A stretch of DNA of 64,000 nt, from the NCBI GenBank assembly GCA_016930015.1, contig JAFGHR010000010.1:1-64000 (forward strand), written 5' to 3'. Position numbers and translations under genes: made by a program. Below, in pieces: positions 12,347-28,582 of this stretch. The notes under the pieces were generated by a model. It did no database searches. It had not been told where the DNA came from and was given only the letters and a program-made list of their open reading frames with translations. This DNA comes from Anaerolineae bacterium (GTDB lineage Bacteria > Chloroflexota > Anaerolineae > Aggregatilineales > Aggregatilineaceae). Within the stretch, counting starts at the first letter, position 1. Every line of letters starts with the position of its first letter.

Positions 12347-15300
12347 ATGAAGCAGTCACATATGCCCCGCTTAACGCTGATCGCGGCGATGGCAGCGGCG
12401 CTGCTGGTTTTCTGGAGTCCGGCGGTGGCGCCGGAGCTAGCGGCGGCACAAGACCCGGACGGGCACAGCCCGGACGCGATCGAAGCGCTGGCGCTGCGCG
12501 TTCATTTCCAGGATCAGCGCATCGACAACTATACGTTCTGGATCGGGGGCAACATGGGCGATCCGCGTGCCGCGCCGTCACGTGCGCCGGTCGGCGAGGT
12601 GCTCGACGGTTGGGAACTGCGCGGCCTGGGTGATAATGCCAGCCGGACCGCTGACGACCTGCGGCGGCCCACGCTGTTGAATTTCTGGGCGTCGTGGTGC
12701 CCGCCGTGTATTACCGAGTTTCCGCACCTGATGGACCTGGCGCTGAATCCCGACGCGCACGCGTTCGACGTGTTGTTTGTGAACATGTCCGACGACGAAG
12801 ACAACGCGCTAGCGTTTGTATCGCGGCTGTCCCCTGATCTTGACGTGGTGATCGATGACCTGAACCGGTTATCCAACCGTGTGAACGTGGAAGCGATCCC
12901 GACCAGTGTGTTACTCGACGCGGACGGCACGGTGTTGATCGTGCACGCGGGCCTGATGACGGCGACGGTATCCGCCTTTTTTGACGCGGTAGCCGCTCAG
13001 CCGGGCGTGGGCACATTCGACGCCGCAGTCTATGCTGATGTATCGCCCACCGCCGAACTGCTGCCGGTCGAAGCGGCCAGCGCAAGCCCCATCGAGCCGG
13101 GGACGCGGGTGCTGGGCACGCTCACACGAACCGATTTTCAGCACGTCTACCGGTTCGAAGGCCGGGCCGGTGACCAGGTGGCGATCACACTGGCAGCGGA
13201 TTCGTCCGAGCTTGATCCCTACGTGGTGCTGATGACGGCGGACGGCGAGCGCATCGCGGAAAACGACGATTTTGAGCTGGGACCGGACGCGCATGTCGAA
13301 GCCGCGCTGCCCGCCGATGGGACATACCTGATCGTGGCCACGCGGTTTTTGGAAGCGGACGGGTTTTCGACCGGCGACTACAGCCTTTCGCTGTCCAAAG
13401 GCGGCGGGCTGGCGGAGGGTGTACTCACGGTTGGCGCGGCGGTGATGGGGCGCGTCAGCGGTAACAATCCGCGCGAGTTGTATTCGCTGGCGGGGCAGGC
13501 GGGCGACGTGATCACGCTGCGTGTGACTCACGAGCCGGGCGACGTGGCGCTGCGCATCGAGATCAAAGACCCGCACCTGGACCGGCTGGCCGTCAGCGAG
13601 GAATCGGTAAACGGCGAAGCGGTCATCGAAGCGCTCGAACTGCCCGACGATGGTAATTATATGCTGGTCGTGATGCGTCCCCGCTCGCGCGATCAGGTGA
13701 ACCTGGATTACACGCTCACAATCGAAGCTGCCGAGCCAGTCGCCGCCGAAAATGGTGAGTTAGAAACAGCCATGATCGCGCCAACGGCTGTTTTGCAGCC
13801 GACGACTGTCCCGCAAGCGACCGCTTCTCCGCAAGCGACCGCTTCCCCGGAGCCGACGATTACCCCGGACGGCGTGCTGGTGCCCGGCGCGGCGGTGTCC
13901 GGCACCCTGGACGATGCCAATTATGACGATCGCTGGACGTTCGAGGGCGCTATGGGTGATGTGATCAGCCTGGCGATGACGCGAACGGTCGAAGGCCCCG
14001 GCGAGTTGGACGGCTTTTTGCGGCTCCTGGGGCCGGACGGCAGCACATTGGTTGAGGTTGATGACGTTGACGACAGCGTGATGCCTTCGCTTACCGGGTA
14101 TGAACTGCCTGCCGACGGCGTGTATACGGTGGTGGCTACACGCCTTGATTTTGCGGATGGGCTGTCGTCAGGCACGTACAGCCTGCTGCTGACGCGTGAT
14201 ACGGGTGACGCGGATCAGGCTGCTGCTGTGGAGATTCGCTGGCTGAGCGACGACACGCCCCGGCCTGTGATGCGGCGGATCGCCTACAACGAACGGCTGA
14301 TCGGCGTGATCTCAGACATCAATGTGGATGATTGGTACGTGTTCCAGGGGCGGGGCGGTGACATGATCACGATCCGCATGGCGGCGGATAACAGCGACCT
14401 GGACGCTTTTTTGCTGCTGACCGATGCTGAAGGGCGTGAATTGGCGCGCAGTGATGATACCGACGGAATCGGGGCCGCCGGAATTCTCGATTATGTGCTG
14501 CCGGATGATGCATCCTACCTGATCCGTGCGACACGCTACGGGTTTCAGAACGGCCCGTCCAGCGGTGATTATACGCTGGTGATCGAAACGGATGCCGCGC
14601 CCGTCCAACCGGCGGACCTGGATCAGCCGGTGGTGCCGCTGGTGGTTGGCGAACCTGCCGCCGGTCAACTGGACCCGGCCCATCCCGGTGATGTGTACAC
14701 GTTTTCCGGGCGTGCCGGTGACGTGATCACGGTCAGCGCCCGGCAGCGCAGCGGAGACCTGGACCCGGCGCTGTCGCTGCGTGGTCCGGATGGCATAAAG
14801 ATCGCCTTTAACCGGGATTGGGCTGCAACCGCCGAAGCGCGTCTTTCACGGGTTATGCTGCCCGCGGATGGCGAGTACACGCTGGACGTGATGCTCGACG
14901 ATCACAGCACGTCCGGCAGGTACGCAGTCCTGCTGATGGCGGAAGCCGCGCCCGATGTGCCGCCCGGTGTGACGGCCAGCGTATCACCGGCTGGTGACCT
15001 GGCCGTTGAAGTGTTCCTGCTGTGGGATTCGCCCGCCGACCTCGATCTGAGCGTGCGCGCGCCGGACGGTCCGCCCGTGAACTGGCAGAATCCGTCGAGC
15101 GCCACGAACGGCCAGCTTGTTTCCAGCGCCAACGATAACTGTACCACCAGTCTGAACGTGGTCGAGCGGGTCATCTGGTCGAAGGAAATCGCCGCGCCGG
15201 GCCTGTACACAATCGACGTACACTACGCCTTTGACTGTGCGGGAACAGGCGGCCCGGTCCCGTTTACGCTGGTCGTGGCGGCGGACGGTGTGATCGTCGA

Positions 15301-15385
15301 TGTGTTCGAGGCCCAACTCGCCCGCACCGGGGATCGTTATGTGACCGTGCTCGACTACCGGCCCGGAAGGTATAATGCGCCCTGA
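12347..15385 (+). CDS. Exported thioredoxin-like protein with PPC repeats and a YfaP-like C-terminus
   Basis: 1012 residues. A signal peptide (residues 1-35, ending LAAAQD) is followed by a TlpA/thioredoxin-like domain with the redox motif WASWCPPC (C118, C121) and a cis-Pro in AIPTSV. After this come about five beta-sandwich domains of the bacterial pre-peptidase C-terminal (PPC) type, each ending in the pattern LPADGTYLIVATR or a variant (about 245-345, 352-460, 508-620, 640-760, 772-870). A Pro/Thr/Gln linker (PQATASPQATASPEPT) lies between the second and third. The C-terminal 110 residues (VFLLWDSPADLDLSVRAPDG onward) resemble the YfaP/DUF2135 fold. It is probably a secreted surface redox protein. 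A GGAG site precedes the ATG. Confidence 0.85.
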   Translation: MKQSHMPRLTLIAAMAAALLVFWSPAVAPELAAAQDPDGHSPDAIEALALRVHFQDQRIDNYTFWIGGNMGDPRAAPSRAPVGEVLDGWELRGLGDNASRTADDLRRPTLLNFWASWCPPCITEFPHLMDLALNPDAHAFDVLFVNMSDDEDNALAFVSRLSPDLDVVIDDLNRLSNRVNVEAIPTSVLLDADGTVLIVHAGLMTATVSAFFDAVAAQPGVGTFDAAVYADVSPTAELLPVEAASASPIEPGTRVLGTLTRTDFQHVYRFEGRAGDQVAITLAADSSELDPYVVLMTADGERIAENDDFELGPDAHVEAALPADGTYLIVATRFLEADGFSTGDYSLSLSKGGGLAEGVLTVGAAVMGRVSGNNPRELYSLAGQAGDVITLRVTHEPGDVALRIEIKDPHLDRLAVSEESVNGEAVIEALELPDDGNYMLVVMRPRSRDQVNLDYTLTIEAAEPVAAENGELETAMIAPTAVLQPTTVPQATASPQATASPEPTITPDGVLVPGAAVSGTLDDANYDDRWTFEGAMGDVISLAMTRTVEGPGELDGFLRLLGPDGSTLVEVDDVDDSVMPSLTGYELPADGVYTVVATRLDFADGLSSGTYSLLLTRDTGDADQAAAVEIRWLSDDTPRPVMRRIAYNERLIGVISDINVDDWYVFQGRGGDMITIRMAADNSDLDAFLLLTDAEGRELARSDDTDGIGAAGILDYVLPDDASYLIRATRYGFQNGPSSGDYTLVIETDAAPVQPADLDQPVVPLVVGEPAAGQLDPAHPGDVYTFSGRAGDVITVSARQRSGDLDPALSLRGPDGIKIAFNRDWAATAEARLSRVMLPADGEYTLDVMLDDHSTSGRYAVLLMAEAAPDVPPGVTASVSPAGDLAVEVFLLWDSPADLDLSVRAPDGPPVNWQNPSSATNGQLVSSANDNCTTSLNVVERVIWSKEIAAPGLYTIDVHYAFDCAGTGGPVPFTLVVAADGVIVDVFEAQLARTGDRYVTVLDYRPGRYNAP

Positions 15386-16681: not shown

Positions 16682-16818
16682 GATAGATTCACTTTCGTAT
16701 GGTACGCGAATACGGACAGATACCAGTATACCTCACCGGGGCGGCATTTCTCGGCGGCTGGGGGCCGAAGTATAATACACAAACACTGGCGCGGCAGGAT
16801 CGACAGGAGGACCATGTG

Positions 16819-17664
16819 ATGAAACGATTAATGACAGTGCTGGCGGTGATCGCCGGTGTGATCATGGTGGTGGCAGGTGTGGCCGTGCCCCGGTTGGCCC
16901 TGGCCCAGGATGGCGACGGGGCGCATGCCGCAGAAAGTGCAGCGGGCGCAGAAAGTGCAGCGGGCGCAGAAGGGGCGGCTGAGGGCGGCGATAACCCGGC
17001 GGCGTGGGGCGCCGCGCTGTACGCAACCTACTGCCAGGCGTGCCATGGCCCGCAAGGCGAGTCGATCGGCAGCGGCCCGGCATTTTCGGCTGTCACCTAC
17101 GATCCGGACACCGCCCACGACGTGATCGCACACGGCGTAGATTCCGATCCGGCGGACGCGATCGCCATGCCCGCTTACGGTGAGGCGGCGGGTGGTGTGC
17201 TGGATGATGAGCAGATCGAGCAGATCACCGCGTACATGGCGACATGGGGCACAGGTGAAACGCCTCCGCTGCCCGAACCGAATCTCGAACACCCGGAACC
17301 CGGCGCGGTTATTTACGCCAAAACGTGTTACGGCTGTCACGGCGACCAGGGCGCGGGTTACGATACGCCCACGTTCCCCGCATTCGAGCCGGACGATCAT
17401 ACACGGCGCGTAGTACAGGACGGTCACGAGAGCATCACTGTCCCGGCGTTTGGCGTGGAGCAGGGCGGCCCGTTGAGCGATAGTGATATCGACGCGCTGG
17501 ATGTATACTTGGCGTCGTGGCAGGCGGAAGGCGATCACGACGCAGCAGACGAGGAAGACTCCGGCAGCGCGCAGGGATTAAACGCCGTGCTCGTGCTGGT
17601 GGGCGTTATCGCCATTTTGACGGTCGGCGGTGTGTATATGATGCGGTCACGGAGCAGCGAATAA
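16819..17664 (+). CDS. Membrane-anchored diheme cytochrome c
   Basis: 281 residues. An N-terminal signal peptide (MKRLMTVLAVIAG onward, to about residue 30) is followed by a low-complexity stretch of GAESAA repeats encoded by an 18-bp tandem repeat. Then come two cytochrome c domains with CQACH (C72, C75, H76) and CYGCH (C170, C173, H174), each with a downstream Met-containing segment that could give the sixth ligand. A C-terminal transmembrane helix (VLVLVGVIAILTVGGVYMM) ends in RSRSSE. It would face the outside of the membrane and carry electrons. AGGAGG at 16805-16810 sets the ATG at 16819. Confidence 0.9.
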   Translation: MKRLMTVLAVIAGVIMVVAGVAVPRLALAQDGDGAHAAESAAGAESAAGAEGAAEGGDNPAAWGAALYATYCQACHGPQGESIGSGPAFSAVTYDPDTAHDVIAHGVDSDPADAIAMPAYGEAAGGVLDDEQIEQITAYMATWGTGETPPLPEPNLEHPEPGAVIYAKTCYGCHGDQGAGYDTPTFPAFEPDDHTRRVVQDGHESITVPAFGVEQGGPLSDSDIDALDVYLASWQAEGDHDAADEEDSGSAQGLNAVLVLVGVIAILTVGGVYMMRSRSSE

Positions 17665-19011: not shown

Positions 19012-19557
19012 ATGACGGATATTCAGTGGGAAAAGAACAGCGTTTTAGCAAAACGTGTGAAGGATCATCGCCGGGGACGTTGGAAGTTCCTGGTCGCCGG
19101 GGTGATCATTCTGGGCGCGGTGGCCTATCTCCTGTTTTATAGCACGGCCATCGGCGCGCGGTATTACGTCACCGTGGATGACCTGGTGAACGATCCCGGC
19201 ATGCTGGGCAAACAGGCGCGTGTATCGGGCGCGGTGGACGGTGATCCCGTGTTTTTCCCTGAGCGTAACGAACTCCAGTTTGTGATCGCCAATATCCCCA
19301 ACGATAACGACTCGATCAAGGAGCAGGGCGGGCTGGCGAAAGTGTTGTATACGGCAGTGAACAGTCCAGACACCACGCGGCTTAGGGTGGTGGCCCACGA
19401 TCAAGAGATTCCCGACCTGTTGCAGCACGAAGCCCAGGCGATTTTGACCGGCAAACTGGTGCAGGAAAACGGCGACTACGTGTTTTATGCGTCCGAGATC
19501 ACGCTGAAATGCCCGACCCGGTATGAGGAAGACGTGCCGGATCAGGTGGTTCAATAG
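19012..19557 (+). CDS. ccmE: Heme chaperone CcmE, CXXXY variant
   Basis: 181 residues. CcmE covalently holds heme on the outer face of the membrane and passes it to the CcmF/CcmH ligase. One N-terminal transmembrane helix (WKFLVAGVIILGAVAYLLFY) is followed by the OB-fold typical of the family (ARVSGAV, RLRVVAHDQEIPDLLQ, AQAILTGKL). At the heme-binding site the classical HXXXY is replaced by CPTRY (C167, Y171), aligned exactly as in K-H-D-E-N-Y of classical proteins. CXXXY CcmE proteins are known from archaea and Desulfovibrio. It lies some 7 kb before ccmF, with a P460-like cytochrome gene directly downstream. Confidence 0.92.
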   Translation: MTDIQWEKNSVLAKRVKDHRRGRWKFLVAGVIILGAVAYLLFYSTAIGARYYVTVDDLVNDPGMLGKQARVSGAVDGDPVFFPERNELQFVIANIPNDNDSIKEQGGLAKVLYTAVNSPDTTRLRVVAHDQEIPDLLQHEAQAILTGKLVQENGDYVFYASEITLKCPTRYEEDVPDQVVQ

Positions 19558-19684
19558 TCTGGACCGGTCGCGGCAGATCATCCCCAAAAGATGCTTTCAA
19601 AACAAGCGTTGGAGTAATCCGGCGCTTCTTTTTGTTTTGATTTACGCTAATTTTGTTATAAAAATACAAAAAAAGGAATATTTG

Positions 19685-19713
19685 TTGCCATCAACCCCGA
19701 ATCACCCTATACT
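19685..19713 (+). promoter_or_regulatory. Strong promoter upstream of the first P460-like gene
   Basis: TTGCCA (19685-19690), a 17-base spacer, then TATACT (19708-19713). The expected transcription start is near 19720, exactly where the nested inverted repeats of the leader begin. Confidence 0.7.
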
Positions 19714-19839: not shown

Positions 19840-21105
19840 ATGCGTCGACTATTACCCGTTTTTGCTGTTCTTATTGTGGGGCTGATGCTGGCGATAGTTG
19901 CGCTGGTTGGGGCAGAAGAAACAGACCAACCCGGCGTTATTATTGCCCAGGATGGCCCCGGACTCCCTGACGCAAACGGCGCGTCTGTGTTGGATTACGT
20001 GATCAACCAGAATCCGTATGTGGAATGGAAAACCTGGCCCGCCGACCGTTGGACCGATTTTTCAGGTGTTATTCAGAGCGGCGCGCCGCACGGTGAAACG
20101 GTGCGCATTTTTGTAAATGATATCGCGTTAGATGCCGCTGCCGCCGAGTTTGACGGCGTTCTCCCCTACGGCAGCATTGTGGTCAAAGAAAACTATGGTG
20201 GCACGGTTGACGAACCGGGCGACGTGATGGCGTTGACGATCATGTACAAGGTCGAAGGTTACAACCCGGACGCGGGTGACTGGTTCTGGATCAAGGCTAA
20301 TGGTGACGGCAGCGCGATCGATGCTGAAGGCATGGTCGAAGGCTGCATCGGCTGTCACAGCCAGGACGGCAACGCTGACTTTATGCTGCGTTATGCGTTT
20401 GGCGAAGAACCGGCCACGTATTACGGTGATCCGCTGCCTGAAGCTGACGGCGCGGCGGTGATCGACTACATGCTGAATACCAGCTCCTACACGGAGTGGG
20501 GATCGTGGCCCGCCACCGAGGACGATGATTTCAGCGGTTACCTTGCCAGTGATGCTCCGCACGGCGAAACAGTACGCATTTTTGTGAACGATCGCGCGCT
20601 GGATGCGCTGGACTACACGCATTTTGACGGCGTTCTTCCCTACGGCAGCATCGTGGTCAAAGAAAACTACGGCGGCACGGTTGACGAACCGGGCGACGTG
20701 GTGGCGCTGACGATCATGTACAAGGTCGAAGGTTACAACCCGGACGCGGGCGACTGGTTCTGGATCAAGGCTAGTGGGGACGGCGGCACGGTCGATGCTG
20801 AAGGTATGGTCGAGGGCTGCATCGGCTGCCACAGCCAGGACGGCAATTCCGATTACCTGCTGCGTTATGATCTGCCCGAAGCCGCCGGTATGATGGGCGA
20901 CGAGGGCATGGGCGCCGGGGACATGGCGATCGATGCCGAAGCGCTGATCAATGAGCGCTGCACCCAGTGCCACACGCGCGATCGGGTTGATGCGGCGGAA
21001 TATGATGCTGCCACCTGGCAGGCGACGATTGAGCGTATGGTCAGCAAGGGCGCGGTGCTCAACGAGGAAGAAATCGCCGCGCTGGTCGAATACCTCAGCC
21101 AGTAG
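19840..21105 (+). CDS. Triheme protein with two cytochrome-P460-like domains
   Basis: 421 residues. A signal peptide (MRRLLPVFAVLIVGLML) precedes two copies of a cytochrome-P460-like domain (about 45-190 and 195-345), each ending in CIGCHSQDGN. A C-terminal domain with CTQCH and a helical tail (EEIAALVEYLSQ) follows, giving three c-type heme sites. Inside each P460-like domain are APHGETVRIFVND, GSIVVKENYGGTVDEPGD and DWFWIK. Classical P460 proteins oxidise hydroxylamine using a Lys-heme cross-link; whether that happens here cannot be read from the sequence. The second halves of the two domains are nearly identical, pointing to recent internal duplication. AGAGGAG precedes the ATG. The neighbouring ccm genes would attach its hemes. 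Confidence 0.82.
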   Translation: MRRLLPVFAVLIVGLMLAIVALVGAEETDQPGVIIAQDGPGLPDANGASVLDYVINQNPYVEWKTWPADRWTDFSGVIQSGAPHGETVRIFVNDIALDAAAAEFDGVLPYGSIVVKENYGGTVDEPGDVMALTIMYKVEGYNPDAGDWFWIKANGDGSAIDAEGMVEGCIGCHSQDGNADFMLRYAFGEEPATYYGDPLPEADGAAVIDYMLNTSSYTEWGSWPATEDDDFSGYLASDAPHGETVRIFVNDRALDALDYTHFDGVLPYGSIVVKENYGGTVDEPGDVVALTIMYKVEGYNPDAGDWFWIKASGDGGTVDAEGMVEGCIGCHSQDGNSDYLLRYDLPEAAGMMGDEGMGAGDMAIDAEALINERCTQCHTRDRVDAAEYDAATWQATIERMVSKGAVLNEEEIAALVEYLSQ

Positions 21106-21139
21106 GCGCTCATTCCGGTTACCAGTTTGTCACACACAA

Positions 21140-21171
21140 CGGCCCAGGATTTCCGCCCTGGGCTGTTTTTT
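21140..21171 (+). terminator. Intrinsic terminator after the first P460-like gene
   Basis: CGGCCCAGG and CCTGGGCTG form the stem, followed by TTTTTT (21166-21171). It lies 35 bases after the stop codon. Confidence 0.85.
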
Positions 21172-21200
21172 CGTCGTGTGGATGGTTTGCGACGGGGTGA

Positions 21201-23087
21201 TCACCGCGTGATGTGCACGCGATCCACGATCAGCCAGTTTTGGTTATCGGGCGTGCCGTCCACCGGCCAGAACGCGCCGTCCGGCCCCATCACGCGCACG
21301 ACGACTTTAGCCTCACCGGTCGGCATGTCAGGATTCAGATTCAGGTCAACGTCACTGCGCCACACCTGACCGGGCTGCCACGTCGCGGGGGGAACATGGG
21401 CGAAGGTATCGCTGCCGCGTGTGAGCTGCCCGCTGTAGACTTCACCGGACGGGCCTTCGATCCGCACCTCCGGCTGAAAAGTCGTATCCGGCGCGAGCAC
21501 TTCCCAGTACAGCGTCACGTGGACCCAACCGCTGGGCGGGTGCAGGCGATAATCACGCCGCGCGACGGAATCCGCGACCACCTGGAAGCCGCGCAGGACC
21601 ACGCGCCCGCCGAACGTGATATCCAGCGGCACGGCTTCCGGCGGCAGGTGATCGGTTTTCGGACGCAGATCATACCCCTTGACCGTGACCGTGGTCGGGA
21701 AAACTTCGGTGCGCAGCGGGTAACGGTCCTGGAACCAGCCCTGTAACGCGCCCTCAGGATCACCCAGGTGCGGCACAAACAGCGCCAGCCACACCGTATC
21801 GTAACCTTCGGTCACAAACGGCAGCAGGTCATCCAGCGGCATGTCACGGTTGACGCTGTACCAGGGCGCGATGACCGTGCTGTCGCCCTCGTAATAAAAC
21901 ATAAATGTCGGCTCGCCGTAATTGCTGACCACGATCACCACGTCGCCCGCGTCGCCGTACTGCTCGATAAAACGCGCGGCAGCGGGGAAGTCATCGCGCG
22001 CGGTGGGATCGAGCTGGTAGGCCAGCCCGACCAGGGACGCGGCCAGCAGTCCCGCCAGCACCACGCCGCGACCCCAACGTGTAGGGATGGCGCTCACACC
22101 GACGCCCAGGCCGAGCACAAACAGCGGCACGACATACGCGAAAAACTTGGTTTTGAAGATATCGTTACTCAGCGCAAACCACGCCATACCCGCGCCCGCT
22201 GTGACCAGCATCAGCAGCGCGGCGGCCATCAACGGGCGGCGCGGCCCGGCCACGAACGCCCAGATCAACAGGATCACGCACACGGCCAGGATCGCCCACA
22301 GCCAGCCGTCACTCAATGGCGGCTGGTGGACCAGCAGCCCCGACCCGAAACGGCGCACAAACGCGCCCAACGTCTCCGGCGCGCGTTCGGCAATGGGAGA
22401 ATGATCGCCCCGGCGCTGCCACATGGTCCAGGCGTAGGGCAGGTAGGCCAGCCCGACCACGCCCAACGCGATCACGCCTGCCAGCCGGGCGCGTAATGTG
22501 CCTGATCCGAATACAGCCCAGGCCAGGATCGCAGCCCCGCTGGCGGCGATGGCAACCGCGCCGATGATGTGCGAGTATCCCGCGCCCAACGCGGCCAGCG
22601 CAAACGCGATCCACCACACCGGGCGGGACGTGTTCAGCGCGTGCAGCAGGCATAACCACGCCGTCCCGGCCAGCAGCGCCAGCAGCGCGTACATGCGCGT
22701 TTGCTGCGTGGCCCAGATCAACAGCGGGTTGATACTCCACAGCAGGCCCGCGATCAGCGCCGGACGGGTGCCGAACAGCCGCCGCGCCAGCGCCATCAGC
22801 ACCGCGCCCAGCAGGGCATCGGCCAGCACGCTCGACAGGCGCAGCCCGGCCTGGCTGGTGCCGGTCAGGTTGATCCACACGTGCAGCAGGACAAAATGCA
22901 GCTTGGGATGTACATCAAGCTGGTCGTCGGCAAAATGCCGCAGCAGGTCGCCCAGCGATCCCTGGGCCAACCCCATGCTGAACGTTTCGTCACCGTCCAG
23001 GCCGTGCACGTTCACCAGCGCCAGCCGGAGCATGATCCCGGTCAGCAGGATCAGCGCCAGCCCCCAGAATACAGTCTTATGTAACAT
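21201..23087 (-). CDS. Multi-span glycosyltransferase, PMT/ArnT (GT39)-like
   Basis: About 628 residues. An N-terminal helix (MLHKTVFWGLALILLTGIML) is followed by the loop VNVHGLDGDETFSMGLAQGS, whose D-E pair is the usual metal/donor site of GT-C enzymes, then about ten hydrophobic helices up to residue 390. The C-terminal 230 residues form a soluble beta-rich extracellular part (VTLYWEVLAPDTTFQPEV). Such proteins move a sugar from a polyprenyl-phosphate carrier to a lipid or protein outside the membrane. The Met at 23087 is preferred because a longer frame (from 23153) would overlap the upstream epimerase gene. It is likely cotranscribed with that gene. Confidence 0.8.
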   Translation of the reverse strand: MLHKTVFWGLALILLTGIMLRLALVNVHGLDGDETFSMGLAQGSLGDLLRHFADDQLDVHPKLHFVLLHVWINLTGTSQAGLRLSSVLADALLGAVLMALARRLFGTRPALIAGLLWSINPLLIWATQQTRMYALLALLAGTAWLCLLHALNTSRPVWWIAFALAALGAGYSHIIGAVAIAASGAAILAWAVFGSGTLRARLAGVIALGVVGLAYLPYAWTMWQRRGDHSPIAERAPETLGAFVRRFGSGLLVHQPPLSDGWLWAILAVCVILLIWAFVAGPRRPLMAAALLMLVTAGAGMAWFALSNDIFKTKFFAYVVPLFVLGLGVGVSAIPTRWGRGVVLAGLLAASLVGLAYQLDPTARDDFPAAARFIEQYGDAGDVVIVVSNYGEPTFMFYYEGDSTVIAPWYSVNRDMPLDDLLPFVTEGYDTVWLALFVPHLGDPEGALQGWFQDRYPLRTEVFPTTVTVKGYDLRPKTDHLPPEAVPLDITFGGRVVLRGFQVVADSVARRDYRLHPPSGWVHVTLYWEVLAPDTTFQPEVRIEGPSGEVYSGQLTRGSDTFAHVPPATWQPGQVWRSDVDLNLNPDMPTGEAKVVVRVMGPDGAFWPVDGTPDNQNWLIVDRVHITR

Positions 23088-23103
23088 TGATCGTGGTTTC
23101 ACG

Positions 23104-24069
23104 TCAGCCGCTGCCCGGTTCCTGTGTCGGTGTGATTTCACGCTGTGCCGCAAAACGTGGATCGCCGTTCAGCACATAACGCAGCCCTTCTTCGAGGAAT
23201 ACTTTGGGCTGGTAGCTGAGCAGGTCTTTGGCCAGCGTCAGGTCGGCGCACATGCGCAGCACGCCCGCGTTTTGATCGGCCACGTGGAGCAAATGCGGTT
23301 CGCGGTTTGTGACCTCACCGATCAGACGCGCTACACCGTTGATCGTGGTTTCGACACCGCTGCCCACGTTGATCACACGCCGGTCTACGTTCGGCGCTGT
23401 AGCGGCGCGAACCAGCGCGTTCACCACGTCGTCGATATACACAAAATCGCGGCTCTGCATGCCGTTGCCGTGAATGACCACCGACCCGTTGCCGATCACC
23501 TGGTGCATAAACTGGGGGATAACGGGCGGGTGAGCGGCGGGTAACTGCTGCCCTGGCCCGTAGGCGTTAAATACGCGCAAACTGACCGTTTCGACGTTCC
23601 ACAGGCGCCCGATCGTGTGAATGTAGTATTCGGCGGCCAGTTTGCTGACCGCATACGGCGACCGGGGATCGGGCGATAGGCTTTCGGTCATGGGCTGCTG
23701 CTTCTGGTTGCCGTAGATCGCGCCGGACGACGCGAACACCAGCCGTCCCACGCCGACATCGCGCATGGCTTCCATCACGCTGACGGTGCCGCCCACGTTG
23801 GCCGCGTTGTAATCACGCGGATAACGCACACTTTCGGGCACGCTGACCCGCGCCGCCAGGTGATACACACAGTCCACGCCTTGCAGCAGTGTCCACAGGC
23901 GCGGCACGTCGTTAACGTCCCCGCGTGAAAACGTCACGTTTTCCGGCAGGCGCGACGGATCACCTGCGCTGAGATCATCCAGCACGCGCACATCATGGCC
24001 CAGCGCTACGAGCCGCCGTACCAGGGCGCTGCCTACGAATCCCGCTCCACCGGTAATCAAAAACTGCAT
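23104..24069 (-). CDS. NAD-dependent epimerase/dehydratase (UDP-glucose 4-epimerase-like)
   Basis: 321 residues of the extended short-chain dehydrogenase family. The NAD-binding GGAGFVG motif sits at the N-terminus (FLITGGAGFVGSALV), VYHLAARVSVPES follows, then the catalytic Ser (FASSGAIYG) and the YAVSK motif carrying Tyr and Lys. RVFNAYGPGQ and the substrate-side GMQSRDFVYIDDV match nucleotide-sugar epimerases. It probably supplies an activated sugar, perhaps for the adjacent GT39-like enzyme. ATG at 24069; the longer frame adds unlikely residues. Exact substrate cannot be told from sequence. Confidence 0.9.
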   Translation of the reverse strand: MQFLITGGAGFVGSALVRRLVALGHDVRVLDDLSAGDPSRLPENVTFSRGDVNDVPRLWTLLQGVDCVYHLAARVSVPESVRYPRDYNAANVGGTVSVMEAMRDVGVGRLVFASSGAIYGNQKQQPMTESLSPDPRSPYAVSKLAAEYYIHTIGRLWNVETVSLRVFNAYGPGQQLPAAHPPVIPQFMHQVIGNGSVVIHGNGMQSRDFVYIDDVVNALVRAATAPNVDRRVINVGSGVETTINGVARLIGEVTNREPHLLHVADQNAGVLRMCADLTLAKDLLSYQPKVFLEEGLRYVLNGDPRFAAQREITPTQEPGSG

Positions 24070-24218
24070 ACAGATTGTCCTTATAGTGGATAATACCAGT
24101 CCGATAACGCACAAAATGTCGCTTGGTTGTTTGGTTTTGCCGTATTGCCTATTGTACGGCATATTAATCCTATCACCGATCCGGGGTTTGGTCAGGTTAG
24201 CGGAGGGATAGTGTTATT

Positions 24219-25094
24219 TTGACAGGTATGGAGCCGCCGCCGGGTGTCTCAAACCGGCCCAATACACACGTTTTGTCACAAAAAAACGAGCACCGCCCGT
24301 ACCGGCGACCGGTGATCTGGGCGCTGGTCGTGATAGCAGGCATCATTTTTGGCGTATGGCTGTCGGCCACCCCGCCGGGCGTGCTGGGCAAAGCGGACGC
24401 TGTCGGTTACGCGGTCTGTCACCGCATCGAGGAGCGCTCATTTCACGTTCATGACCGCCCGCTGCCGATGTGTGCGCGCTGTACGGGCATTTTTCTGGGC
24501 GTGATCACGGGCCTGATCGTGTTTATCGTGCGCGGGCGCGTCCGCGCCGGACAATTCCCACCGCTGCGCGTGTTGGGCGTGCTGGGATTGTTCGGGGCGG
24601 CATATGTCCTCGACGGCCTGAACAGCTACCTCAGCCTGTTTGATGCATACACGCCGCTCTACCAGCCGCATAACACGCTGCGCCTGGTCACGGGGGCGCT
24701 GGCCGGGCTGGCGATGATCACGATCGCGCTGCCAGCGGCTACTATCAGCACGTGGGCCGAACCGCTGCCGCTGGCGCCGGTTGTATCCCTGCGTGAGATC
24801 GGGCTGCTGGTGTTGTGCGCCGCGCCCGTGATCGGGCTGGTGCTGCTGGAACTGCCCGCCGTACTGGTGCTGGCGGGTGTGATCAGCGCGATCGGGGTGG
24901 TGTTTATGTTTGCGCTGATCGGCAGTGTGTTATTTGTTACCGTGATGCGCCGCGAAAATACCGTGTCCCGCTGGCGGGACCTGACGCTGCCGTGGTTGGG
25001 CGGCCTGGTATTTGGAATCAGCGTGATCGGCCTGATCGACCTGGTACGGTACATCACCACCGGCACATGGGGCGGCTTTGACATCACCATGTAG
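24219..25094 (+). CDS. DUF2085 membrane protein
   Basis: 291 residues. The family hallmark is plain: VGYAVCHRIEERSFHVHD then LPMCARCTGIFLG, giving a Cys-His pair and a C-x2-C pair at the outer end of a membrane helix. Five to six hydrophobic segments are predicted, including VIWALVVIAGIIFGVWL and IGLLVLCAAPVIGLVLL. The function of DUF2085 is unknown; the cysteines suggest metal or redox chemistry. The frame starts at TTG 24219, 11 bases after GGAGGG; an in-frame ATG at 24228 is possible. It lies between the two P460-like genes, on the same strand. Confidence 0.85.
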   Translation: MTGMEPPPGVSNRPNTHVLSQKNEHRPYRRPVIWALVVIAGIIFGVWLSATPPGVLGKADAVGYAVCHRIEERSFHVHDRPLPMCARCTGIFLGVITGLIVFIVRGRVRAGQFPPLRVLGVLGLFGAAYVLDGLNSYLSLFDAYTPLYQPHNTLRLVTGALAGLAMITIALPAATISTWAEPLPLAPVVSLREIGLLVLCAAPVIGLVLLELPAVLVLAGVISAIGVVFMFALIGSVLFVTVMRRENTVSRWRDLTLPWLGGLVFGISVIGLIDLVRYITTGTWGGFDITM

Positions 25095-25153
25095 CGGGAA
25101 ACCCGCGTAGGGGGTTAAAGCAGCAGCGTATAACTACATAAGGGGATGTGTCT

Positions 25154-26386
25154 ATGCATAACAAACCGTTTGCGCTTGCCGTTTTGGGAACCAGCCTTTT
25201 GCTGGCCGCGCTAGTGCTGCTTGGGGATCGATCACCCATGCCGCCGGTCGGCGCACAGGAACCCGATCTGCCGCCGCCCACAGCGGCGGGCGTGTGGGAC
25301 TATATCACCACCCAGAATCCGTACACGGCCTGGGGCACATGGCCCGCCGACCGCTGGACGGATTTTGAAGGCGTGTTTGAGAGTGCCATGCCGTATTCCA
25401 CCACGGTACGCCTGTTCGTGAACGCTATCGCACTTGACGCCGCACACGTTGACAGCACGCTGCCCGCCGGGAGTATGCTCGTCCTGGAAAGTTACGGCGG
25501 CCCGGTGGACGCGCCCGGCGATATGGCGTCGATCTCGGTTATGTTCAAGGTGCCGGGTTATGATCCCGCCAACGGGGATTGGTTCTGGCTGCAAACCAGC
25601 CCGGATGGCGCGGACGTGGCGTTTGAAGGCCGCGAACCATTGTGTTCGGGCTGCCACAGCCAGCCCGGTCACGTCGATAGGATGCTGCGCTACGCGTTTG
25701 GTGACGAACCGGCGGTGACGTCCGGGCTGCCGCTGCCGGTGGCCGAGGCTTCGACTGTGCTGGATTACGTGCTGAACGTCGATCCGTACACGACGTGGGC
25801 CACGTGGCCCGAAAACGAAACAAACGGCTTCCTGGCGGGCGTGGGCGAGGCACATGGTGAAACGGTGCGCATCACTGTTCACGAACGGGCGCAGCGTGCC
25901 GCCGCGCGGGACTCGTTCGACGGCGAGTTTCCCAACGGCAGCCTGATCGTCATGGAAAATTACGCCGGGATCGTGGATGAGCCGGGCGACCTGGTCGCGC
26001 TGGCGATCATGTATAAAGTCGATGGTTTTGATCCCGCTGGCGGCGATTGGCTGTGGATCACGACTGACATTGACGAGGGCGAACACACCATCGGCGCGGC
26101 AGGTGCGCTTGAGGGGTGTTTGAGATGTCACGGTCGGGGGGATAATGTCGATTTCCTGCTGCGTTATGATGCGCTGCAAGCCGCCCCGGCGCGTGCGATC
26201 GACGCCGAAGCCCTGGTGAATCAAGAGTGTGCGCTGTGCCATCCCATGACCACCGTAGACACCGCCCCCTACACGACCGTCGAGGAGTGGGGGCCGGTCA
26301 TCGACCGCCAGATCGGTTATGGCGCTAACCTGGATGACGAGGAGCGCGACGCGGTCGTCGAATACCTGGCGAACCGCTCCCAGTAA
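25154..26386 (+). CDS. Second triheme protein with two P460-like domains
   Basis: 410 residues, a paralogue of the protein at 19840 with the same order: signal peptide (MHNKPFALAVLGTSLLLAAL), two cytochrome-P460-like domains, and a C-terminal heme domain. Heme motifs are CSGCH, CLRCH and CALCH. Shared landmarks include ITTQNPYTAWGTWPADRW, AHGETVRITVHERAQ and GIVDEPGDLVALAIMYK. Unlike its paralogue the two domains have diverged from each other, so the internal duplication is older here. It stands 70 bases ahead of ccmF and may be cotranscribed with the maturation genes. The ATG at 25154 follows AAGGGG; a GTG at 25148 is the alternative. Confidence 0.82.
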   Translation: MHNKPFALAVLGTSLLLAALVLLGDRSPMPPVGAQEPDLPPPTAAGVWDYITTQNPYTAWGTWPADRWTDFEGVFESAMPYSTTVRLFVNAIALDAAHVDSTLPAGSMLVLESYGGPVDAPGDMASISVMFKVPGYDPANGDWFWLQTSPDGADVAFEGREPLCSGCHSQPGHVDRMLRYAFGDEPAVTSGLPLPVAEASTVLDYVLNVDPYTTWATWPENETNGFLAGVGEAHGETVRITVHERAQRAAARDSFDGEFPNGSLIVMENYAGIVDEPGDLVALAIMYKVDGFDPAGGDWLWITTDIDEGEHTIGAAGALEGCLRCHGRGDNVDFLLRYDALQAAPARAIDAEALVNQECALCHPMTTVDTAPYTTVEEWGPVIDRQIGYGANLDDEERDAVVEYLANRSQ

Positions 26387-26458: not shown

Positions 26459-28582
26459 TTGATCGCAGAACTCGGCATTATTACAACCGGCTTGGCATTT
26501 TTGGCGGCAGGCTACGCGTTGATCGCGGCGCTGGCGGGCGTGTACCTGCGACAGAATAGACTGGTGCTCAGTGCGCGGAACGCCGCGCTGATGACGTTCC
26601 CGCTGCTGTCGGTGGCGTGCACGGTGATGGTATATGTGCTGCTCAACCACGAATACAGCATTGCTTACGTCTGGCAGACGACCGACAACGGCACCCCCGC
26701 GTTTTACCGGTATACGGCGCTGTGGGGCAGCCAGGCCGGATCACTGTTGTTCTGGTCGTGGCTGCTCAGCGCATTTGGTGCGGCGGCGTTGGTCCTCAAC
26801 TGGCAGTCGGAGCGGCGGCTGATGCCCTACGTGATCGTCGTGCTGATGGCGACACTGGGTTTCTTTTTGATCCTGAACGTGTTCATCGAAAACCCGTTTG
26901 AACGTTACTGGCTCAGTCCCGGCGATTCGGCCCCGGAAAAGGCGCTGTTCCAGCCGTCCGGTGATGCCCAGTTGTTCGAACCCATCGACGGCGCGGGGCT
27001 GAACCCGCTGCTGCGTCACCTGGGCATGGTCTTTCACCCGCCTATGTTATACCTGGGCTTCGTGGGCTTCACGATCCCGTTTGCGTTCGCGTTCGCGGCG
27101 CTGGCAACTGGGCGCCTGGGCGCGGACTGGATTCGGGCGACGCGCAACTGGGCGCTGATCGCGTGGCTGTTTTTGAGCCTGGGCTTACTGCTGGGCGGTC
27201 GCTGGGCGTATGACGTGCTCGGCTGGGGCGGTTATTGGGGCTGGGACCCGGTCGAAAACGCGGCGCTGCTGCCCTGGCTGACCGGTACGGCGTTTTTGCA
27301 CAGCGCCGTCGTGCAGGAAAAACGCGGTATGCTCAAGTTCTGGAACCTGCTGTTGATCGTGCTGACGTTTGTGCTGGTCGTGCTGGGGACGTTCGCCACG
27401 CGCAGCGGTGTTGTGAGCAGCGTACACAGCTTCGCCGAGTCGGAGATCGGCCTGCCGATGTTCACCTTTATGGGTGTTTCGACGCTGGCGAGCGTGCTGC
27501 TGCTGGTGTGGCGCCAGGAGCGCGGCGATCTGCGCGGCGCGGACGAACTCGACTCGCTGTTCAGTAAAGAAAGCCTGTTTTTGCTGAATAACTGGATGTT
27601 CCTGGGGCTGACGGTGGTTGTCCTGTGGGGCACCTGGGCCGAAGCGATCACGACTATCGCGGTTGACCTGGGCCTGCGTGACACGGTGATCAACCTGGGG
27701 CCGGACTATTTCCCGCCGGTCGTGCGCCCGTTTTTGATCGCGCTGTACATCCTGATGGGGATCGCGCCGCTGGCCGCGTGGCGGCGGTCCACGGCGGAAC
27801 GTTTGGGCCGGGCTGTCGTGATCCCGCTGGCGCTGGCGTTGATCCTGGTGGCCGTGTTGGGCGCGACCGGCACCGGCAGCCTGTGGGCGCTGGTCGGTTA
27901 TGGGTTGGTGGCGTTCGCCGGGCTGGCAACGATCACCGAAATCTGGAAAGGCATGTCGGCGCGTCATCGCCGGGGCGAACACTGGGGAGCCGCGTTTAGC
28001 CACCTCGTCGCGCGTGATCGCCGCCGCTATGGGGGGTACTTCATCCACCTGGGGATCGTGGTGCTGGGGCTGGGCGTGATCGGCAGCACATCGTTTCAGC
28101 AGATCACGCAGCAAACGCTAAACGTGGGCGAGCGGCTGGAACTGGGGCCGTACACCATGCGGTACGATGGATTGTACGGCGCTCAAGCCGAGGATGGCCG
28201 CCAGATGATGATCGCCAAAGCCACCGTGTACCGGGGCGATAACGAAGTGGCGCAGATTCGCCCGCGCCGTGATACGTTTTTCACGACGAATCCCACGACC
28301 GGCCAGCTTGAGCCGTCCACCAACATGAGTATTCCCGGCGCTCACAGCACCCTGGCTAACGATTTTTACGCGATTATCACGTTTTGGGAAGGGAATCGCG
28401 TGACGTTCCGCGTCTACCTGAACCCGCTCATTAACTTTGTGTGGCTGGGCGGATTCATCCTGATCGCCGGGACGCTGGTGGCACTGTGGCCGTCGCGGCG
28501 GTCGCCGGTCGCAGCGCGGGTATCGGTTCCGACGGGGCCCCCTGGCACGCCAGGGGCACGCGGCGCGCAGGCGGGAGATTGA
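26459..28582 (+). CDS. ccmF: Cytochrome c heme lyase subunit CcmF
   Basis: 707 residues, multi-span membrane protein that takes heme from CcmE and, with CcmH, attaches it to the CXXCH of apocytochromes. The heme-handling WWD motif is readable as LGWGGYWGWDPVENAALLPW (about residue 255), with flanking conserved segments PPMLYLGFVGF and LPWLTGTAFLHS. About 14 hydrophobic helices plus a periplasmic loop near the C-terminus are visible. It probably starts with TTG at 26459, since GGGAGG lies about 9 bases upstream and no ATG fits the family's N-terminus. It opens the run ccmF, ccmH, ccmG, ccmI-like. Confidence 0.95.
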   Translation: MIAELGIITTGLAFLAAGYALIAALAGVYLRQNRLVLSARNAALMTFPLLSVACTVMVYVLLNHEYSIAYVWQTTDNGTPAFYRYTALWGSQAGSLLFWSWLLSAFGAAALVLNWQSERRLMPYVIVVLMATLGFFLILNVFIENPFERYWLSPGDSAPEKALFQPSGDAQLFEPIDGAGLNPLLRHLGMVFHPPMLYLGFVGFTIPFAFAFAALATGRLGADWIRATRNWALIAWLFLSLGLLLGGRWAYDVLGWGGYWGWDPVENAALLPWLTGTAFLHSAVVQEKRGMLKFWNLLLIVLTFVLVVLGTFATRSGVVSSVHSFAESEIGLPMFTFMGVSTLASVLLLVWRQERGDLRGADELDSLFSKESLFLLNNWMFLGLTVVVLWGTWAEAITTIAVDLGLRDTVINLGPDYFPPVVRPFLIALYILMGIAPLAAWRRSTAERLGRAVVIPLALALILVAVLGATGTGSLWALVGYGLVAFAGLATITEIWKGMSARHRRGEHWGAAFSHLVARDRRRYGGYFIHLGIVVLGLGVIGSTSFQQITQQTLNVGERLELGPYTMRYDGLYGAQAEDGRQMMIAKATVYRGDNEVAQIRPRRDTFFTTNPTTGQLEPSTNMSIPGAHSTLANDFYAIITFWEGNRVTFRVYLNPLINFVWLGGFILIAGTLVALWPSRRSPVAARVSVPTGPPGTPGARGAQAGD

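Follow-up and report, generated by a model that had tools for sequence, protein, structure and literature searches.

Cytochromes P460 and cytochromes c'-beta belong to one superfamily of heme proteins, in which the c'-beta members show the P460 fold without the Lys that is cross-linked to heme in P460. In every structurally characterised member of the superfamily the distal site is capped by Phe or Arg, and c'-beta proteins bind nitric oxide (NO) (PMC11928373). The cytochrome P460 of Nitrosomonas sp. AL212 (NsP460), in which the cross-link is present and the distal carboxylate absent, is inactive on hydroxylamine (PMC11928373). The same review treats superfamily sequences as proteobacterial, and asks why some organisms possess a cross-linked P460 together with a cross-link-free c'-beta (PMC11928373). 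Here we describe two genes, A and B, found in the first 64,000 nucleotides (nt) of contig JAFGHR010000010.1 of an Anaerolineae bacterium (Aggregatilineaceae; assembly GCA_016930015.1), a stretch that we call the window. Gene A (positions 19840-21105) encodes a predicted secreted triheme protein of 421 residues with Lys at both cross-link positions, and gene B (25154-26386) a predicted secreted triheme protein of 410 residues with this Lys in neither of its two repeats. Both genes are on the forward strand, as are their parts and the ccmE, ccmF and DUF2085 genes, hairpins and promoter-like site described below.

Domain anatomy of A and B

Genes A and B are intact open frames with three CXXCH motifs apiece, and each protein shows a hydrophobic N-terminal helix, two cytochrome P460 domains and a mono-heme cytochrome at the C-terminus. 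The helix is predicted at residues 4-24 and stands as a putative signal peptide. In A, repeat 1 (19975-20400, about residues 46-187) has its CXXCH from 20344 and repeat 2 (20443-20880, about residues 202-347) from 20818; in B, repeat 1 (25274-25693, about residues 41-180) has its CXXCH from 25643 and repeat 2 (25745-26185, about residues 198-344) from 26117. The Pfam profile PF16694 gave 37.6 and 37.4 bits for the repeats of A, and 29.2 and 25.7 bits for those of B, the last being just below the cut-off of 27 bits; at the level of the whole protein both are over the cut-off, with E-values of 2.5e-20 (A) and 1.7e-13 (B). These four domains are the only PF16694 matches in the genome, and no match was obtained across 14 control genomes.

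A profile built from the family retrieved the solved cytochromes P460 and c'-beta from the PDB (best E-value 4e-17), while a phmmer search of the PDB with the sequence of A found no relative, so that only profiles succeeded. AlphaFold2 models, heme-free and built from 28 sequences, had a mean predicted local distance difference test score of 78.6 for A and 83.2 for B. Repeats 1 and 2 of A match the c'-beta/P460 folds with best Z-scores of 13.3 and 12.3, and those of B match the P460/c'-beta folds with Z-scores of 12.8 and 11.0; matches to unrelated proteins with Z below 5 were disregarded. The doubled P460 domain proposed in the original prediction is therefore confirmed by the Pfam matches, the PDB profile and the folds in all four repeats. 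No repeat turned out to belong to a different family or to lack the fold and a CXXCH, in models that, being heme-free, do not show the pocket itself. The domains had been described as ending in CXXCH; the motif is present in each repeat, but each domain extends 15-20 residues beyond it.

The third CXXCH domain, also anticipated, is a class I-type cytochrome c in both proteins. In A the module spans 20929-21102, with CXXCH from 20959 and Met400 at 21037-21039, and matches PF13442; in B it spans 26189-26383, with CXXCH from 26228 and Gln386 (26309-26311) in place of Met. In profile comparison, the last 60 residues gave matches to heme module I of quinohemoprotein amine dehydrogenase (QHNDH) with an E-value of 3e-13 and to SorB with 7e-8, and the same QHNDH alpha and SorB structures are matched by the folds of the A and B modules. 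Twelve of the 14 modules, that of A among them, keep this Met, as do the solved relatives; in B and in a short B of a related genome (G011) it is replaced by Gln. This conserved Met presumably acts as the sixth heme ligand. A thus has both the CXXCH and the Met of a QHNDH alpha/SorB-like module, whereas B has the CXXCH but Gln386.

Across this Chloroflexota family the module is fused to unrelated secreted domains: SnoaL, Peripla_BP_6, PF03640 repeats, DUF7282 and domains of no known type. Since it is appended to so many of them, we read it as an electron relay of general use, or a docking tag, which is not specific to P460. Loci with such fusions, in which a closely similar mono-heme module of about 60 residues forms the C-terminus, are L013, L014, L015, L019, L022, L031, L032 and L064.

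The anatomy is thus well supported, and makes A and B triheme c-type cytochromes of the P460/c'-beta superfamily, predicted to be extracytoplasmic. Neither of them matched PF13447 and both have three hemes rather than eight, which places them outside the octaheme HAO family.

Residues of the P460 sites

Site residues were located using the reference positions in Table 2 of PMC11928373. The alignment recovers Lys70 and Glu96 of the Nitrosomonas europaea P460 (NeP460), Lys106 and Phe76 of NsP460, Met79 and Ala109 of the c'-beta protein NeCP-beta, and Phe61 and Gly82 of TtCP-beta; position 131 of NsP460 is mutated in the chains used, and Phe29 of TtCP-beta immediately precedes the aligned block. 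Both repeats of A show Lys at the cross-link position, Lys116 (20185-20187) and Lys274 (20659-20661), whereas B has Leu111 (25484-25486) and Met267 (25952-25954). The position of the distal, proton-accepting carboxylate, Glu96 or Asp102 in hydroxylamine-oxidising cytochromes P460, is occupied by Thr133 and Thr291 in A, and by Ser128 and Ala284 in B. At the cap position, A has His84 and His241, and B has Tyr81 and His234. The alignment sets Tyr81 and His234 of B against the Phe that caps NsP460 and TtCP-beta; however, the loop alignment shifts by about three residues in the Arg-capped proteins, and for this reason the placement of a His over the heme iron is regarded as no more than likely.

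A therefore combines the P460 fold and a CXXCH heme c with the cross-link Lys, while both repeats of B have the fold without this Lys, as cytochromes c'-beta do and A does not. The Lys for a heme cross-link that the original prediction proposed to look for is thus found in both repeats of A and in none of B.

The same residues were examined in 52 domains of the family. His is found at the cap in 50 of them and Lys at the cross-link position in 47, and the distal carboxylate position, mostly Thr, holds Asp or Glu in 0/52. Thr co-occurs with Lys, being present in 41 of the 47 Lys domains and in one of the five Lys-less domains (Fisher p 0.003, uncorrected for kinship); two of these five, four of which have lost Thr, belong to a single protein.

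Family spread, repeat history and gene context

Within the same family, six out of 18 genomes carry tandem P460 genes, five of them with the cytochrome tail and one (G001) without it. In a seventh genome (G009) the tandem gene is interrupted by the contig end, and a genome of the same order (G022) shows a tandem P460 gene without the cytochrome tail. Nine of 400 Chloroflexota genomes drawn carry the clade (E-value of 1e-8 or lower), and more than one domain was present only in the genome of the window, which indicates that the P460 array is rare. A profile search of contigs with the family alignment gave 38 loci, and protein A as sole query gave none. Fusions of P460 to cytochrome c are present in other Chloroflexota, and a genome of another family of this phylum (G137) encodes a P460-P460-cytochrome c protein, whose two repeats group together (99/92). 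Furthermore, an acidobacterial gene (L072:8993-11245) encodes a protein of 751 residues with three tandem P460 domains after a non-heme N-terminal region; its second and third repeats form a group in the trees. Judged from these groupings, the two arrays are separate duplications and tandem P460 arose more than once. The claim that known P460 proteins have a single domain holds for the characterised ones, but not for these two arrays. No description of a tandem P460 protein was found in the open-licence literature, in agreement with the prediction of an undescribed architecture.

Relatives with one P460 domain and this same signature occur in Desulfobacterota, Bacteroidales, Marinimicrobia, Gemmatimonadota, Nitrospirota, ANME-2 archaea (anaerobic methanotrophs), Methanosarcinaceae (Methanolobus) and others, and no gene context is conserved around them across phyla. 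Adjacent pairs of a Lys and a Lys-less paralogue also occur in G011 (A and the short B) and in G118. In the latter, a Chloroflexota genome, the pair (L061:6750-9692) consists of adjacent P460-cytochrome c fusions with Leu and Lys, respectively, at the cross-link position, and the Lys copy has four CXXCH motifs. Another Chloroflexota genome (G207) shows a gene (L062:2684-3910) for a P460 domain with Met at the Lys position and a C-terminal domain resembling, by sequence, blue-copper proteins of the plastocyanin type.

Gene A contains a direct repeat (20149-20869) of 247 nt, whose copies at 20149-20395 and 20623-20869 are 91% identical; the two repeats of A have probably been homogenised at the DNA level by gene conversion. 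In phylogenetic trees, with modest support, repeat 1 of A falls among first repeats from other genera and repeat 2 among second repeats (86/85 for the latter), and B sits with the local A-type proteins, away from the known c'-beta. The homogenisation of A blurs the repeat history in the trees, and approximately unbiased tests rejected none of the alternative histories. The data are most simply read as an old duplication of the domain, earlier than the duplication that gave A and B, with later gene conversion within A.

The two paralogues lie beside cytochrome c maturation genes, as the original prediction stated. Gene A starts 283 nt downstream of ccmE (19012-19557), which encodes the heme chaperone, and B ends 73 nt upstream of ccmF (26459-28582). 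Three genes are located between A and B, encoding a glycosyltransferase-like protein, an epimerase-like protein and a DUF2085 membrane protein (24219-25094), the last directly 5' of B with a gap of about 55 nt. Terminator-like hairpins are found 3' of ccmE (19604-19627) and 3' of A (21138-21167, 11 pairs and a T tail), so A is perhaps a separate transcription unit. The hairpins and a promoter-like site 5' of A (19685-19713) are consensus matches only, in a sequence whose promoter count is not above chance. The ccmE-A order is also found in four related metagenome-assembled genomes (G015, G011, G007 and G009), with mscL-ccmE-A kept in G011 and G009, and in G011 the order is ccmE-A-B-ccmF without intervening genes and with B shortened; however, the A-type genes of G001 and G022 are not adjacent to ccm genes. 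Because of these two, we read the link with ccm as that of client genes lying next to the machinery that matures their products. Two other genes were seen in this part of the window: one at 12347-15385, near the ccm cluster, encodes a secreted protein of 1012 residues in which a redoxin/thioredoxin domain precedes several PPC domains, and one at 16699-17664, upstream of the cluster, encodes a diheme cytochrome c with a hydrophobic C-terminal anchor.

Possible function and comparison with known systems

A and B probably represent a known heme protein wired in a new way, rather than ordinary hydroxylamine oxidases. The reading that we prefer, tentatively, is that A may be a P460-type cytochrome with two sites and its own wiring, whose substrate would be a small ligand (NO or another nitrogen oxide being most likely), and B its c'-beta-like partner without cross-link. 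The two tandem P460-fold heme domains of each protein would be the ligand-binding sites and the C-terminal class I-type cytochrome the electron relay. When matured aerobically, A would have Lys cross-linked to heme in both repeats, which would give low-potential, ligand-open hemes. Without the distal carboxylate, the route of NeP460 from hydroxylamine to nitrous oxide (N2O) would be expected to fail, as it does in NsP460. The small ligand, NO or a related nitrogen oxide, would be bound beneath the His and reduced or oxidised via the fused cytochrome, the electrons passing to or from the cell through A's own C-terminal domain. B would bind or buffer the ligand more likely than turn it over, because neither of its repeats has the Lys and its relay Met is replaced by Gln.

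Several points weigh against this reading. No activity, spectrum or ligand is recorded for any member of the clade. Homologues are found in sulfate reducers and methanogens, where NO and a cross-link dependent on O2 or peroxide are less expected. The genome, which is 88% complete and encodes cytochrome bd, gave no member of the heme-copper oxidase/NO reductase family and no NosZ, so no nitrogen-oxide pathway is visible in it; a search for NrfA also found none. Finally, oxidase activity could be regained without the carboxylate if the conserved His relayed protons.

In an unlikely alternative, A and perhaps also B would oxidise hydroxylamine in the manner of the Nitrosomonas cytochrome P460, yield NO or N2O and use the extra heme to remove electrons. 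A shares the fold and the cross-link Lys, and a fused electron acceptor would fit. An octaheme protein of the HAO family is encoded in the same genome as well (L104:8484-9836, on contig C11 of G000), with a PF13447 match, eight CXXCH motifs and a hydrophobic N-terminal stretch; however, this gene is on a different contig from A and B. The case for the hydroxylamine-type activity that the original prediction named for P460 proteins is weakened by the missing distal carboxylate in every domain of A and B and by the lack of Lys in B. The required Asp or Glu, moreover, is missing from all 52 family domains, and the same lack abolishes the activity of NsP460 (PMC11928373). The A131E change gives hydroxylamine oxidation in NsP460. 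Peroxide chemistry, with the cross-link-free hemes of B as peroxidases, appears somewhat less probable still: Met in repeat 2 of B recalls Met79 of NeCP-beta, and guaiacol peroxidase activity is described for NeCP-beta and for the K70A variant of NeP460 (PMC11928373), but the activity of NeCP-beta is ascribed to its Arg cap, B has no Arg at the aligned position, and the relay Met of B is gone.

Other explanations do without a substrate. It is improbable, though less so than either of these enzymatic alternatives, that A and B are electron wires or surface cytochromes with the P460-fold hemes as redox stations. The tagging of SnoaL, periplasmic binding protein, PF03640 and DUF7282 domains with the same C-terminal cytochrome would suit such a role, as would the common presence of single-domain relatives in anaerobes, but characterised P460-fold hemes are ligand-open and of very low potential (PMC11928373), and the strong conservation of the distal His, Lys and Thr is unexpected for a mere wire. 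A contribution to cytochrome c maturation, by setting the redox state of heme iron or of the CcmH/CcmF thiols or by sensing heme supply, is very unlikely: the adjacency of ccmE and A in five genera and of B and ccmF in two speaks for it, and against it stand the apparent separate transcription of A, with a hairpin on either side, the A-type genes of G001 and G022 without ccm genes nearby, and the relatives elsewhere without conserved context.

A broader form of the preferred reading, which we hold with more reserve, extends it to a wide P460 clade of anaerobic bacteria and methanogenic and ANME archaea. Its members might have a Lys-ready heme, a near-invariant His, no carboxylate and a chemistry other than that of hydroxylamine, with A as a two-site, self-wired form paired with B so that cross-linked and cross-link-free hemes cooperate. 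The strongest points of the analysis are the His/Lys/Thr signature of this clade and the co-located pair of a cross-linkable and a cross-link-free protein. Here both types are near-neighbour paralogues at one locus, each doubled and with its own electron carrier, which makes the question raised in the review testable in one system. Lys kept, carboxylate absent and a His cap define a broad group outside Proteobacteria that current work on mechanism does not cover, and the family residues speak against labelling such genes hydroxylamine oxidases on the strength of Pfam matches only.

In relation to the described systems, A and B resemble cytochromes P460 (NeP460, McP460 of M. capsulatus and NsP460) in fold and CXXCH placement, and A also in the Lys of both repeats; NsP460 is the nearest of them in having no distal carboxylate. 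They differ from cytochromes P460 in the tandem domains and the fused cytochrome c, A also in Thr at the carboxylate position and His at the cap, and B in the absence of Lys. B is like cytochromes c'-beta (NeCP-beta, 7s5o; McCP-beta, 6hih; TtCP-beta, 7ead) in fold, loss of Lys and lack of a distal carboxylate, but it is tandem and fused to cytochrome c, and in the alignment has Tyr or His rather than Phe or Arg at the cap position. The C-terminal module is similar in sequence and fold to heme module I of QHNDH alpha, to SorB of sulfite dehydrogenase and to cytochrome cz, with the Met kept in A; however, A and B lie outside those enzymes and the B type has Gln for Met. The single-domain P460 proteins of Desulfobacterota, Bacteroidales, Marinimicrobia, Gemmatimonadota, ANME-2 and Methanolobus, none of which is characterised in the literature searched, share the signature PHG...VKEN...TxMYK...DWFW...CxxCH with A and B, but have one domain and no fused cytochrome. 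P460 arrays are also seen in the proteins of G137, where a cytochrome is fused to them, and of L072; these differ from A and B in the type of cytochrome or in the N-terminal region.

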